Both the position numbers and the translations under genes were made by a program. Below the pieces are notes generated by a model. That model was not told the DNA's origin. It ran no database searches and saw only the letters and a list, made by a program, of their open reading frames with translations. A stretch of 64,000 bases of DNA from Cliona cf. orientalis (lineage: Eukaryota > Porifera > Demospongiae > Clionaida > Clionaidae): the NCBI GenBank assembly GCA_963930775.1, contig OZ005695.1:186001-250000 (forward strand). The letters are read 5' to 3'. Numbering within the stretch: position 1 is the first letter of the stretch; each line of letters begins with the position of its first letter. Positions 50,389 through 64,000 of the stretch are shown here, piece by piece.

Positions 50389-51196
50389 TTAATAATGAAG
50401 CGATAGCTTACCATAGTCCACATTGACGTAAGGGATGACTGATGATATTCGCGTGGTTCTCTCGCTAGTTAGAGACACTTCACACGGAGGCTGCCTACGG
50501 GAGTGAGCGTTATCTATCACCGTGCTGTAGATATCAACCGAGCGCAGGTTTGGATCAGCGGGAGCTCTACGAGTGTCTCTATAGACGACAGTGAGAGGTA
50601 TATCGATCGACTGAACCAAGGTGTGGATGTACCATCCTACAACATCACCAGGTTGGAAGTGGAGTGGAGATTGGCTGCTAGGCCCAGGTGCTGTGAAGTT
50701 GAAAAATTGCGTGCCATCAACGACAGTCGTGCCGTGTCGTAGTGTGTTGCCGATAAATCCAAGATAGTGAGATCCAATGAAATCGTAGACACCACTGCTC
50801 CTGGGTCTAGGCCTCCACAGTTGGAAGGTTATGTCGTGTCTCAGCAACTGAATTGCAAAATCAGTTGAAGCGTATCTTGTCAGAGCACTCCAGCCTGTGA
50901 TGTAGCCGTGACAGGTGAAGTTCATTTGGGGCACAATGACCAAGTAGCCAGTACTATGAGCCGTGTCTGGGAGCTGGTAGTCCACTCCTCCGTTGGTTGA
51001 AAAATATCGTTTTGGTGGGAAAGCATCACTTCTGCACTCGGGCTGTGACAATCCTGTGGAAATTAGTGGAAAAATTTTTAATTGGTAACTGCTAATATTC
51101 ACAAAAAATATTCTGCATTTTATATTATACAAAATTAATTTTTATCTCACCCGGTGCTATGAGTAGAAGGAGTGTAAACAGTATTTGCAGTTCCAT
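50389..51196 (-). CDS. Secreted protein with the receptor-cluster ectodomain
   Basis: Two exons, 51151-51196 and 50389-51053, give 236 residues. The first exon encodes a signal peptide (MELQILFTLLLLIAPG). The rest is one copy of the ectodomain shared with the neighbours: IVPQMNFTCHGYITGWSA, then FQLWRPRPRSSGVYDFIG, then LHFQPGDVVGWYIH. No membrane helix or kinase follows. The frame ends NVDYGKLSLHY and stop, but the codon for that Gly overlaps a good donor (ATG|GTAAGC-like, at about 50412). A further exon could be used, although I see none before IFT27 ends 345 bp away. The domain has no name I can give. The product is probably secreted and might act as ligand, adhesion protein or decoy; that is inference. 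Confidence 0.7.
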
Positions 51197-52183
51197 GACT
51201 CCGATGTATGTAGCATCTGCACAAAGTTAATTGAAATTAGTATTGCGCTTGTGATGTTTAAGCTGCATGCATGGAGGCTATTTATACTGCTGCAGGTGCA
51301 AGGCAGCCTACTTTTGGTTTCATGACCTCGTCATCACTTCCCTTGTGCCTTGACCTTCCTGCTCGTCATAATTTCTACACTGGGTGGGGGCCAACTCTTT
51401 AATTCAATTACCGGTATGTCAACAAGCTCCTGTCCACAACACACCACATCCTGTTGTGCTGCTCTGATGTTTCTTTAAAAACATTATGTTTGCTCAGTTC
51501 TGTGGGTGCACCATGTAGCCACGCATGCTCTATGGTGACACACACACAGCACACAAAGGAGACATGTTCCCCTGAGCCCTCAGTGACCTCGCTGTACTGC
51601 CTCTTCAGGTTTTCTTTCCCATGCCTCAACCTATTCCTGCTTCCTCTTTGACAGCTGACTCTGAAGGAGATCGTGGGCTGGAATTCTCATAAATTGGTTT
51701 ATTTGATTGTAATAGTCCACCTCCATGTAGCAGGCTAGCTGGCTAGCTGCCCCAGCAGTGCTCTTCTTCCTTGTTCTTTGATGACATCATGTTAGCTAAT
51801 AAGCCCCAGGAATGTCTGAGTGGTTGCATCAAGCCCTTTTATTTTTCCTTCAGCTAACCGTCAGTAGTTGTGCCTCTTAGCCGCTGATGATAAAGTGGGT
51901 GGACTTAATTAGTATGCATGCGTAGTATGCATGTCCTTAACCAAATTTAGGCATCTTTCATTTCTAAGTGGTACGTGCATGCGTGTGTGTGTGTGTGTGT
52001 GTGTGTGTGCATGTGTGACTGCTTGCTCCTATTGATGGCTGTGGCTTCCCTCTCCATGAATAAGTGTGGGGAAATCTGGACCTTATATCAGTCACATCAT
52101 AGCCATGCAGGCTAATAATAATTATATCAGCTACGATAGAGAAATTATAGTATGCGTGACTCTTTGATCAGAAATTTAGATTC
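51197..52183. other. Intergenic region between two ectodomain genes
   Basis: This gap of almost 1 kb holds the 5' region of the secreted gene and the 3' region of the membrane gene. It has a (GT)n microsatellite at about 51982-52008. Short open frames carry no recognisable domain. Confidence 0.45.
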
Positions 52184-60874: not shown

Positions 60875-63800
60875 TCAAGAATTGAGGTATGAATTTTGTA
60901 GTTCGTGGTAGAGGTTCTGTGCTACTTCCAGTGGAGCTCCAATAATCTTCACCTGGGGGTCACTGTTCCTCAAATCCTCCTCCTCCCACACAAATAGCTC
61001 AAAGTCAGCTCGAGACAACATCTCCACTAGCTGAGGGAAGGTGGGTCGACTGGAGCGATCTGGATGCCTGTGTAAAAAATGAAAGAACTCCCTTTCAATA
61101 AAGAAAGACAAGGCTAAGTGTGTACCAGCATTGAATCATGATCTTGTATAGTTCTTTGGGCAGCCCAGGAGGGGGAGGGAGGCGACAGCCACCATCAATC
61201 ATTTTGATGACCTGTGGGAAGGCATATTATTATAAGATACCGTGTACACTTCAGCCCTTATCTCATATCTGAACTTTTTTCCCAACTTTGGACGTCATAA
61301 GCTAGCTCTATCCACCATAATACTAATACTATTATGCATATATCCAGCAAGGATTATTGCAATCGTGTGGTCTAACCTCTGCATTGCGATAAGCTTCGTA
61401 TGGTTTATGTCCGAGACTCCATATCTCATACATGATGCAGCCATAGCTCCACACATCACTGGCAGTGGAGTACTTCTTGTAGTGGAGAGCCTACAGTGAA
61501 TAAACAGGAATCATAATTACACTATAGAATTTACATCACAATGCCATTGAACTATCACTAGCTACACATAAACATTTCCTACTGACTTCTGGGGCTGTCC
61601 ACTTCACTGGCACTTTTCCTCCATGGGAAACATAGTAATTCTCATCCATCAAATCACGAGACATTCCAAAATCACTGATCTAAGGAATGAATTTATAAAT
61701 AGAAATTCCGCACTTTCAATTAATAACATTAACTTACTTTACAAGTCTTGTCGTCAGCCACCAGAATGTTCCTTGCAGCCAGGTCCCTGTGTACGAATGC
61801 TTTTCTTGCGAGGTATTCCATTCCAGAGGCAATTTGCTGGCAAAACTTGAGCAGCAGCTGCTGAGTGTTTGAGGGAAGAATCTCACCAGGTCTACTGAGT
61901 AAAAAGAAGAGAAATTAAATCTTAATGGGGGGCAAGACTTAATAAACTTACGAAGGCTGCAGTTTACGGAGATAGTTGAGTAAGTCACCATTTGACAGCA
62001 TTTCTAACACAATCATGGTCTATATAAAAATCAATATTAATACCATTAAACATAATATAGTACTGGTACATATAACTCTACACAATCTCACTCACAGGCT
62101 CTCCCACTGTGACCACACCCATCAGCTTGACGACATTGGGGTGTCTGAACTGTCCATTAATGGCCGCCTCCTGGAGGAACTTGACCTTCTCTTCCTCTGA
62201 GGCTCCAGGCTGGAGCTGCTTCACAGCTACATCCATGGCTCCCATTGGACTCTGCCAGATACCCTTATTCACTGTACCAAACTGGCCTGATCCAAGATGA
62301 CTTGTTATTCTGCATATTGAATGGTGTTACAGTATAGAGTAGGATAAGAATAGAATTAATAATAATAATTATTATAGTTGCATTAAACGTTAACTATATA
62401 ATATTATAATGTCATACAATGTACATAATGTGAGTATAATATATATTTCACATCATTTAGACTCTTGAGTGTAAAATGGCTAAACATCCTTCAAAAACAC
62501 CATTGTGAATGAAATGCAGAGATATTACATTTTATCACCTACTGAATCTGTTGTCGCACTATTTCCCGATACTTCTTTGTCGAGAGCTGCTTGTATAGCT
62601 CGTTGGCGTCTGATGCTGGCTCCCAGTAGGTTTCATCTTCCTCAAAGAGCTTTGGAGCTGCTCCGCTTTCACTGTACTGCCTCTAGGCATGTTATGAATT
62701 GATTAGTAATAACATGGGAGATAGCAAATACAAACTTTCACCTTACCATTCCTATAGTGGAATAAACATCTCCATTAGTCCCATTCTTTGGTAAACTGTT
62801 TCTCTGTTCCTAATAATGTTATTTTATGTATAATCTGAGCACTCATAAGTTGTGGGAGGAAATACCCAGATTTTATAATCACTGCTCAATTTACAAGCAG
62901 AATTGTGTGGGATAACATAGTAGCACTGGCATTTCCTGGTAACCATACAACCTATAATATGTTCAGCAAAATAATTTGTGGAGTATAGGGAAGCTTATGC
63001 ATGGCATCAGTTTTCATAGATCACAATGACATTATGTGACTACTATTATGAGCATGCATGCCACCAGTGAGCGACCGGTGTAGGGCACAGACATGTGTAT
63101 GTGTGTGTGTTCATGTACATGATCAGAGGGCACAAATAGGATAGATGCGTACCTGTGAGGGTACGTAGAGTACTCCAACATCACCAAATGAGTGCTCTGG
63201 CATCTAAAACAAGGAGTAAAAGTACATTAAATTTGAACTCCCCAATAAGGCCTGTGTCTCATCAAGAATATAAATAAACTGTTTGTGTAGTGGACACATA
63301 CCTTGGACATCGTGCTTTGCACTGGTTGCTCATAGTTGCTCATTTCAAAGGGCTGTGGCGTCCTACTGTAATCATGCACGGAGTGTTCAAATACGATATT
63401 GTGAGGTGGAACAATAACTTTTGATTCATCAATATCCTCATAGTCACCATGAGGCATGTGATCAGCACTATTTGTGGTGCTCACAACCATCATACCACTG
63501 GCATTATTAGCTTGAGGAATATGGACAGCAATATTGTCTAAGGAAAAGTAATATTCATAACAAGAGAGATTATACTCCCTAAACTGGGAACAATGGGCTT
63601 ACCATTATAGATGGGATTGGCAATGGTACCATCACTTGATGGTGTAAATTTTTGCCCATTTCTACTTTGTCTTCTCAATACGAGCACCAAAAGAAGGACA
63701 ATGATTAGAACCAAGAGAACAGCTATGATGGCACCAACTGCTGCTCCTGCGACTGTTCCAGTATTACTCTTGGACTGTGCAGCTTCACCCCCACTCAGTC

Positions 63801-64000
63801 TGGGAGGATTGGGTGTTTGAACATCAGTAGTACTAGCTGGCATCTCAGTGGTAGTAGAGCCTGCAGTGGTAGATTCTGAATTGACATTTGTCATCACTAC
63901 CTCTGTGATCATAGTTGTAGTTGAAGCTTCAGTGGTAGTAGCCATTGTACTTGAAGCTTCAGTAGAAGTAGGAGCCTCTAGTTCTGTGGTAGCCATTGGT
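60875..64000 (-). CDS. Receptor tyrosine kinase B (5' part beyond the right edge)
   Basis: This near-identical tandem duplicate of RTK-A is cut by the window end. Visible exons are approximately 63601->64000, 63301-63538, 63151-63202, 62737-62813, 62526-62682, 62096-62310, 61952-62021, 61738-61894, 61587-61681, 61377-61491, 61124-61208 and 60875-61067. They cover a Ser/Thr stalk, the same membrane helix, the tyrosine-rich juxtamembrane region (YEDI, YSTIGM-like) and the whole kinase, with [20 protein letters not shown] and HRDLAARN. The catalytic motifs are intact. The stalk is some 35-40 residues shorter than in RTK-A because Thr/Ser repeat units differ. Only small substitutions separate the kinase domains. 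The start codon, signal peptide and ectodomain lie outside the window. Confidence 0.88.

Follow-up and report, generated by a model that had tools for sequence, protein, structure and literature searches.

A tandem array of modular single-pass receptors in the sponge Cliona cf. orientalis, with receptor tyrosine kinases and kinase-less relatives

Receptor genes at the edge of the array

We analysed a stretch of 64,000 nucleotides from the sponge Cliona cf. orientalis (assembly GCA_963930775.1, contig OZ005695.1, hereafter C7), which corresponds to C7:186001-250000 and is called the window; coordinates without prefix are window positions, and those with the C7: prefix are contig positions. The right-hand part of the window lies at one end of a large tandem array of genes for modular single-pass receptors. 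It contains two receptor tyrosine kinase (RTK) genes, RTK3 and RTK4, a gene for a kinase-less receptor (e2), a gene for an ectodomain alone (e1) and a broken kinase C-lobe (Table 1). We also read C7:146001-380000 and pieces of C7, C1, C11 and other contigs, and searched the assembly (216.8 Mb, 149 contigs). The gene models of RTK3, e1 and e2 were built exon by exon, and that of RTK4 (exons 3-12) by comparison. Signal peptides were called by eye, and membrane helices were assessed by the best 19-residue hydropathy, for which the helices of the array score 2.79-3.86.

RTK3 has 12 exons, with GT-AG borders at every intron. It encodes a signal peptide, an ectodomain assigned to class A (see below), a stalk, a helix, tyrosine-rich juxtamembrane exons and a kinase with a DFG motif, in that order, and the kinase domain is complete (PF07714 positions 1-258, 305 bits in Pfam). 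Exons 3-12 of RTK4 pair one by one with those of RTK3, and its ectodomain is found past the window edge, at C7:250108-250635; the class assignment of RTK4 is based on the parts read, namely kinase, helix and ectodomain. The catalytic motifs are present in the translations of both genes, and by domain content RTK3 and RTK4 qualify as receptor tyrosine kinases. In a comparison of the RTK3 kinase with the PDB by sequence scores only, the top single-domain matches among the best 60 of 825 were Eph kinases, at 246 bits. EGFR was rejected as the nearest kinase, as 9p9u scores higher only by virtue of two kinase domains of 178.7 bits each. Neither an ephrin-binding domain nor FN3 repeats were matched in the 862 residues of RTK3 in Pfam up to E=0.1. 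One RTK3 intron harbours an element of ~815 bp (56264-57077) with inverted arms of 89 and 48 nt (98% and 92%). It is absent from the same intron of RTK4 and is therefore probably a small DNA transposon inserted after the duplication.

The start codon of e2 lies 298 nt after the stop codon of RTK3. Its first exon (53484-52818) codes for the signal peptide and the ectodomain, and the second (52707-52184) for the helix and the tail up to the stop. The tail harbours NLAY and NEIY motifs and ends in ETIL, which we take to be a PDZ-ligand type of C-terminus. A kinase search of 48001-53780, which covers e2, e1 and the region downstream of e1, returned nothing better than E=3.2.

The splice model of e1 comprises exons 51196-51151, 51053-50412 and 50344-50289, with GT-AG borders. 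They encode a signal peptide, called by eye, followed by the ectodomain and by a stop 17 codons into the last exon. This last exon, VSTSSSQAQNGQVPACTN, resembles by eye the start of the linker exon in the paralogues described below. A search of 1.4 kb downstream of e1 revealed no membrane helix (best hydropathy 1.99), and a decayed helix was rejected because that region holds nothing convincing. We thus predict that e1 is secreted. The six full-length paralogues closest to e1 share 49-53% identity with it. Four of them were examined downstream, and three (L041, L042 and L043) run on into a helix and a tyrosine tail. For the fourth, the e1-like L044 (C7:991650-994000), neither was found in 1.5 kb downstream (best hydropathy 2.02), so it is possibly a second secreted gene or has a distant exon. 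Because a helix and a tail are present in three of the four paralogues examined, the best reading of e1 is an anchorless member of the kinase-less receptor branch and not a piece of an RTK.

The C-lobe belongs to a tandem duplication. In blastn comparisons, the block containing RTK3 and the C-lobe is 82-93% identical to 60738-66169 in long segments, and 57963-60092 is 82.5% identical to 63913-66038. The copied block holds one class A RTK together with the final exons of its neighbour RTK5, whose kinase lies at C7:251.0-253.6 kb. Only these final exons of the neighbour remain beside RTK3, as the C-lobe. The C-lobe is frameshifted just after DFG, where RTK5 is in frame. Its frameshift and its origin as a duplication relic led us to reject the C-lobe as a functional kinase fragment.

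The original prediction, of five loci with common parts on one strand, agrees well with these models, as all five are present on the minus strand between 50.3 and 64.0 kb. The splice model and the missing downstream helix identify e1 as the locus said to have a signal peptide and ectodomain only, and the splice model and the kinase search identify e2 as the one said to have an ectodomain, a membrane helix and a tyrosine tail without a kinase. Both of the supposed full RTKs are RTKs, with only RTK3 complete inside the window. The broken C-lobe is present as well, but it is the truncated 3' end of an RTK5-type gene, and as a frameshifted leftover of tandem duplication it is not part of a receptor set. 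The five loci are real but make up only a portion of a much larger array. To the left of the array, positions 1-50000 of the window hold ordinary genes as judged from Pfam matches, and a 283-residue frame at 28766-29614 gave no match in the Pfam scan.

Table 1. Features of the window (positions in window coordinates)
Feature	Position	Strand	Basis and remarks
e1, secreted ectodomain gene (predicted)	50289..51196	-	splice model, 3 exons, 247 aa, ends VPACTN-stop
e1 ectodomain core (IxPxxxFxCxGxITxW ... WRP ... QPGDVVGW)	50503..50949	-	alignments, hhalign
e2, kinase-less receptor (ectodomain, one helix, tail)	52184..53484	-	splice model, 2 exons
e2 ectodomain core	52870..53316	-	alignments, hhalign
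Duplicated block, RTK3 and C-lobe relic	53651..60181		blastn, copy of 60738-66169
RTK3, complete receptor tyrosine kinase	53783..58837	-	12 exons, 862 aa, Pfam kinase 1-258
RTK3 exons 5-12 (end of juxtamembrane part, kinase, C-terminal tail)	53783..55709	-	gene model
RTK3 class A ectodomain	58158..58699	-	alignments, hhalign; then Thr/Ser-rich stalk and helix in the same exon, to 57542
Frameshifted RTK 3' end (C-lobe), pseudogene	59101..60092	-	blastn, frameshift comparison
RTK4 (kinase, juxtamembrane, helix, part of stalk)	60875..64000	-	comparison with RTK3
HECT ligase part	3736-4200		Pfam
Ankyrin repeats	37405-38175		Pfam
DUF4457	41062-41940		Pfam
DNAJC11	47092-48780		Pfam
Ras-family GTPase part	49497-49712		Pfam

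Kinase-less siblings and ectodomain classes

Using window queries, tblastn analyses of C7:146-380 kb (E<1e-3) revealed 13 kinase N-lobes at C7:241-339 kb, all on the minus strand. The array extends to about C7:341 kb and resumes on the opposite strand. An ectodomain profile built from seven copies identified 13 open reading frames at E<1e-4 in C7:236-287 kb. In this segment we counted eight kinase-less loci with helix and tail, namely e2, K261, K263, K265, K273, K276, K278 and K281 (helix hydropathy 2.87-3.86), alongside three RTKs, a relic, the predicted secreted gene and a partial copy of the ectodomain. The exons of the K genes were assigned by order and frame, except for K273, which is a single frame. 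In a kinase search of C7:253651-287300, where kinase-less loci are found, the best hit had E=0.037 with 29% over 42 residues, and on these values was taken as a chance match.

The ectodomains of RTK3, RTK4, K265, K273 and K278 form class A, in which all pairs are 80-88% identical, and those of RTK5, K263 and K276 form class B (69-76%), with K261 only 45-52% identical to the latter. Class A thus comprises two RTKs and class B one RTK, each together with kinase-less receptors. K278 matches RTK3 through the ectodomain and helix and into the beginning of the following exon (DNVAVRDPHANASGMIG), past which K278 continues into NxAY repeats and then a stop; with the frames joined untrimmed, the two are 62% identical over 501 columns. 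K278 resembles FGFRL1 in having an RTK ectodomain and helix with no kinase exon found downstream, but not in the Ig ectodomain. K273, one uninterrupted frame of 464 residues, combines a class A ectodomain (84% identical to that of RTK3) with a class B-type helix and tail (tail 85% identical to that of K276), and is, on its sequence, a chimaera.

Similar arrangements are found elsewhere. On the opposite strand at C7:399.5-405.1 kb, an e2-like kinase-less gene, whose ectodomain is 50-51% identical to that of e2, directly precedes an RTK, and the same order is partly seen by eye in L035 and L036. Whole-genome searches yielded at least 17 matches to the kinase-less tail, on C7, C19 and, for a weak one, C12, at least 97 to the RTK3 ectodomain and at least 71 to that of e1 (E up to 0.01 for the ectodomains), these counts being lower bounds that overlap each other. 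The RTKs at C7:289-341 kb, with exons assigned by order, harbour two other ectodomain types, C and D. In the same interval (L013-L019) we observed two kinase-less genes, K334 and K337 (exon order), with ectodomains of the C/D superfamily; kinase-less siblings may therefore also occur outside the family found in the window.

The signature of the ectodomain is I-x-P-x(3)-F/L-x-C-x-G-x-I/V-T-x-W ... W-R/K ... Y ... Q-P/A-G-D/Y-I/V-V/L-G. An hhalign comparison of class A (five rows) with e1 and e2 gave 96.2% and E 2.6e-9. Used as controls, the array's C and D ectodomains gave 0.1-0.5% against A, B and e1 with e2, and 95.6% against each other; hhalign thus found no link between the A/B/e1-e2 ectodomains and C/D. 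No convincing match to the ectodomain was found in Pfam, nor by sequence in the PDB (best E 0.42). For 12 ectodomains, Pfam up to E=1 returned only two families (best 0.11), neither of them immunoglobulin (Ig), with an Ig relation possible at the level of the fold. Two structure models based on thin alignments are mostly beta, with poor confidence (pLDDT, the predicted local distance difference test, of 44.6 and 52.1).

Further runs of this ectodomain were found on C5, C11, C14, C3 and C10. The dense ones (C5:1.68-1.74 Mb, C14:1.00-1.03 Mb, C11:2.39 and 8.01-8.06 Mb, C3:6.04 Mb) are mostly in frames of 170-280 residues and may represent multi-domain proteins or many receptors. Pieces of an LTR-type (long terminal repeat) retroelement, recognized by eye, are located at L034 2222-3529 and L046 1-780 (about C7:394.1-398.4 kb), where they separate a class A-like ectodomain from a kinase-less tail; they include a gag-like frame with zinc knuckles and a repeated flank. 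On another contig, L048 (C17:2316300-2325600) contains an uninterrupted frame of 2925 residues (minus strand, 9016-242) with an SH2 domain and a row of ten tyrosine-kinase domains (Pfam). A DFG/DLG/DYG scan found only one such motif, in the last domain beside IIHRDVAARNI, so most of these domains look like pseudokinases.

Rates of change and tyrosine tails

We compared the evolutionary rates of the receptor parts. Between RTK3 and RTK4, silent divergence (dS) is 0.117 in the kinase and 0.120 in the ectodomain, and omega (dN/dS) is 0.11 and 1.09, respectively. The ectodomain has thus undergone roughly ten times as many amino-acid changes per silent change as the kinase, and the non-synonymous and synonymous counts of the two parts differ (Fisher's test on rounded counts, p=1.1e-5). 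We rejected the idea that the kinase changes slowly only because it is younger or has been converted, since its dS equals that of the ectodomain.

For the wider comparison we used five of the seven class A copies of C7:236-287 kb, setting aside the partial K281 and 287.1-kb copies as well as the more distant copies of L034-L037 and L039. The ten pairs of ectodomains, which are not independent, gave omega values of 0.61-1.71 (0.95 when pooled), with 1.7 for codons 16-45 of the class A alignment. No stop codon is present in the five ectodomains, with 4.5 expected under neutral change (P=0.011), which makes their neutral decay unlikely. The rates fit selection for change with the reading frame preserved.

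The tails were analysed for tyrosine motifs in a set of 15 picked by hand, from which the L042, L035, L036, L046 and C19 copies were left out; ten of the 15 come from one array, and the tails are not independent. Of 107 tyrosines in these tails, 50 are in NxxY motifs and 43 in NxAY motifs, for shuffle means of 8.4 and 0.7, respectively, and neither count was reached in 1000 shuffles. NxAY is present in 14 tails, and the kinase-less tails hold up to six NxxY motifs each. In the same set, immunoreceptor tyrosine-based activation motifs (ITAM) are absent and their inhibitory counterparts (ITIM) show no excess (7 against 4.2 in shuffled tails, with 7 reached in 124 of 1000 shuffles), and we rejected an ITAM/ITIM reading on these grounds. 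NPxY/NxxY is the core of PTB-binding sites, and by motif count the tails are candidates for PTB docking.

The original prediction went further than the gene models, suggesting that a soluble form, a signalling-dead form and active receptors with related ectodomains could make up a set. The relatedness is borne out by the hhalign comparison of class A with e1 and e2. The soluble, kinase-less and kinase forms do exist, and the set is stronger outside the window, as classes A and B both hold kinase and kinase-less genes. In addition to the C-lobe, the signalling-dead part was dropped: it is unlikely because the tails of e2 and its relatives carry NxxY and NxAY motifs far above chance.

Possible roles of the kinase-less receptors

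The reading that we favour, to which we give a little less than even weight, is that the kinase-less genes may encode docking co-receptors for the RTKs with the same ectodomain class, in a growing modular array. From the gene parts, shared ectodomains, motifs and rates, we infer a shared ligand, pairing, trans-phosphorylation and an adaptor. Ectodomains of one class would bind a common ligand or one another, and the kinase receptor would cluster with its kinase-less siblings and phosphorylate their NxxY tyrosines, which would then recruit adaptors with PTB (or SH2) domains. The kinase-less members would thus be co-receptors that serve as substrates and strengthen or reroute the RTK signal, and e1 might be a soluble competitor or a ligand-bearing form. 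The array would grow by unequal exchange, a process that could also yield chimaeras such as K273 and relics such as the C-lobe. That the ectodomains change so fast suggests that they recognize targets which vary, either microbes or conspecific cells. It is even conceivable, if rather improbable, that the array is a self/non-self recognition locus in which matched RTK/docking pairs with shared, fast-evolving ectodomains would sense contact with other cells or with microbes through the NxAY tails instead of ITAM/ITIM, with a secreted modulator.

A number of observations weigh against the docking model. The ectodomains of e1 and e2 share only 20-26% identity with class A and with one another (20-21% with RTK3 and RTK4), so that a ligand common to them and these two RTKs is far less secure than one common to the members of class A or of class B, and neither AATAAA nor ATTAAA was found within 600 nt of the e1 stop. 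Several kinase-less loci are damaged or incomplete: the stalk of K265 apparently contains a frameshift, the first half of the ectodomain is missing from K281 and the 287.1-kb copy is partial. The stalk and helix of RTK3/RTK4 also have an omega of 0.95, and since the pooled value for the class A ectodomains is not clearly above 1, relaxed constraint combined with selection against stops is possible. The identity of the RTK3/RTK4 introns is uneven (0.69-0.98), so local gene conversion may have shaped parts of the kinase. As for the tails, most of those analysed belong to one array, and ITSM-like motifs (TxYxx[VI]; ITSM, immunoreceptor tyrosine-based switch motif) are in excess as well (6 against 1.1 in shuffled tails, 1/1000), so that NxxY need not be the sole signal.

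Three other accounts were weighed. The kinase-less and secreted forms might bind RTK ligands and damp the receptors, as decoys of the kind raised in the original prediction, or hold cells together, with no signalling of their own. The shared ectodomain with the kinase absent and the predicted secretion of e1 are in keeping with such roles, FGFRL1 was initially read as a decoy (PMC3820611), and an adhesive role has been suggested for the Eph-type receptors that sponges, cnidarians and ctenophores have without a kinase (PMC6485061), a further point against docking. However, a pure decoy needs no tail, yet the tails keep their NxxY motifs, and the FGFRL1 paper itself argues against a simple decoy (PMC3820611); we regard this account as rather unlikely. 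Neutral birth and death, in which the array would consist mostly of duplication by-products under relaxed constraint, with the kinase-less and soluble forms on their way to loss and without joint function, would fit the C-lobe relic, the apparent frameshift of K265, the partial copies and the pooled omega of the class A ectodomains. It is at odds with the strong constraint on the kinase, the absence of stops in the class A ectodomains, the retention of NxAY repeats in otherwise divergent tails and the open frame of e1 in spite of its distance from its nearest paralogues, and we consider it unlikely.

It is also possible to imagine larger transcription units, with varied ectodomain exons spliced to shared intracellular exons. 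The loci are on the same strand, the distance between RTK3 and e2 is short and the exon lengths of e1, e2 and RTK3 indicate phase 1 at the ectodomain borders. Nevertheless, each of these three genes has its own start, stop and proper exon borders, and the kinase-less tails end in stops with no kinase exon found after them, which makes alternative exons very unlikely.

The docking co-receptor model can be compared with several known systems. Paired activating and inhibitory immune receptors and the cnidarian Alr genes are clustered and have shared, fast-evolving ectodomains with differing cytoplasmic parts. Unlike them, the array has tails devoid of ITAMs and of an ITIM excess, and Pfam reports no Ig domain. 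Kinase-less adhesion molecules related to an RTK exist in the sponge Geodia cydonium. The ectodomain of that RTK is Ig-like and it has been discussed in connection with immunity (cited in PMC12018476), whereas the ectodomain described here is not recognized as Ig by Pfam.

Large RTK expansions are known in sponges, with 150 RTK genes in Amphimedon (cited in PMC3584944). Those of sponges and choanoflagellates resemble the present array in that they comprise many RTKs specific to a lineage, whose ectodomains are unusual and whose kinases are ordinary, but as far as the account in PMC3584944 goes, an interleaved kinase-less branch with the same ectodomains is found only here. Eph-type receptors without a kinase are reported from sponges, cnidarians, ctenophores and one choanoflagellate (PMC6485061). 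They similarly combine kinase and kinase-less receptors of one ectodomain family in early-branching animals; however, they have the Eph ligand-binding ectodomain, which was not recognized here, and the relevant parts of PMC6485061 do not mention NxAY-repeat tails or an array layout. FGFRL1 likewise has an RTK-type ectodomain and a helix without a kinase, beside active siblings (PMC3820611, PMC12026108). In the description of PMC3820611 it is one gene with Ig domains, in contrast to a multigene NxAY array with an unnamed domain that is non-Ig according to Pfam. In Monosiga RTKB2, the receptor tail has tandem RM2 modules that the RTK phosphorylates and to which an SH2 domain binds (PMC3584944). 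These are also repeated tyrosine docking modules, but RM2 modules are ~80 residues long, reside on the kinase protein and bind the Src SH2 domain, whereas the NxAY repeats are short and belong to separate kinase-less receptors (PMC3584944 for RM2). Our search of the open literature found no sponge with an RTK array that includes kinase-less siblings and NxAY tails; what is reported are the kinase-less Eph types (PMC6485061).

The class A pairs RTK3/RTK4 and K273/K278 (ectodomains 80-88% identical) make the docking idea directly testable in cultured cells. If kinase-less siblings with the same ectodomains are a standing part of large RTK expansions, kinase-based surveys would miss much of the receptor repertoire, as exemplified by C7:236-287 kb, with eight kinase-less loci, some of them damaged, for three RTKs. 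On the same condition, the array would also represent a paired-receptor design that relies on phosphotyrosine but has neither ITAM nor ITIM.

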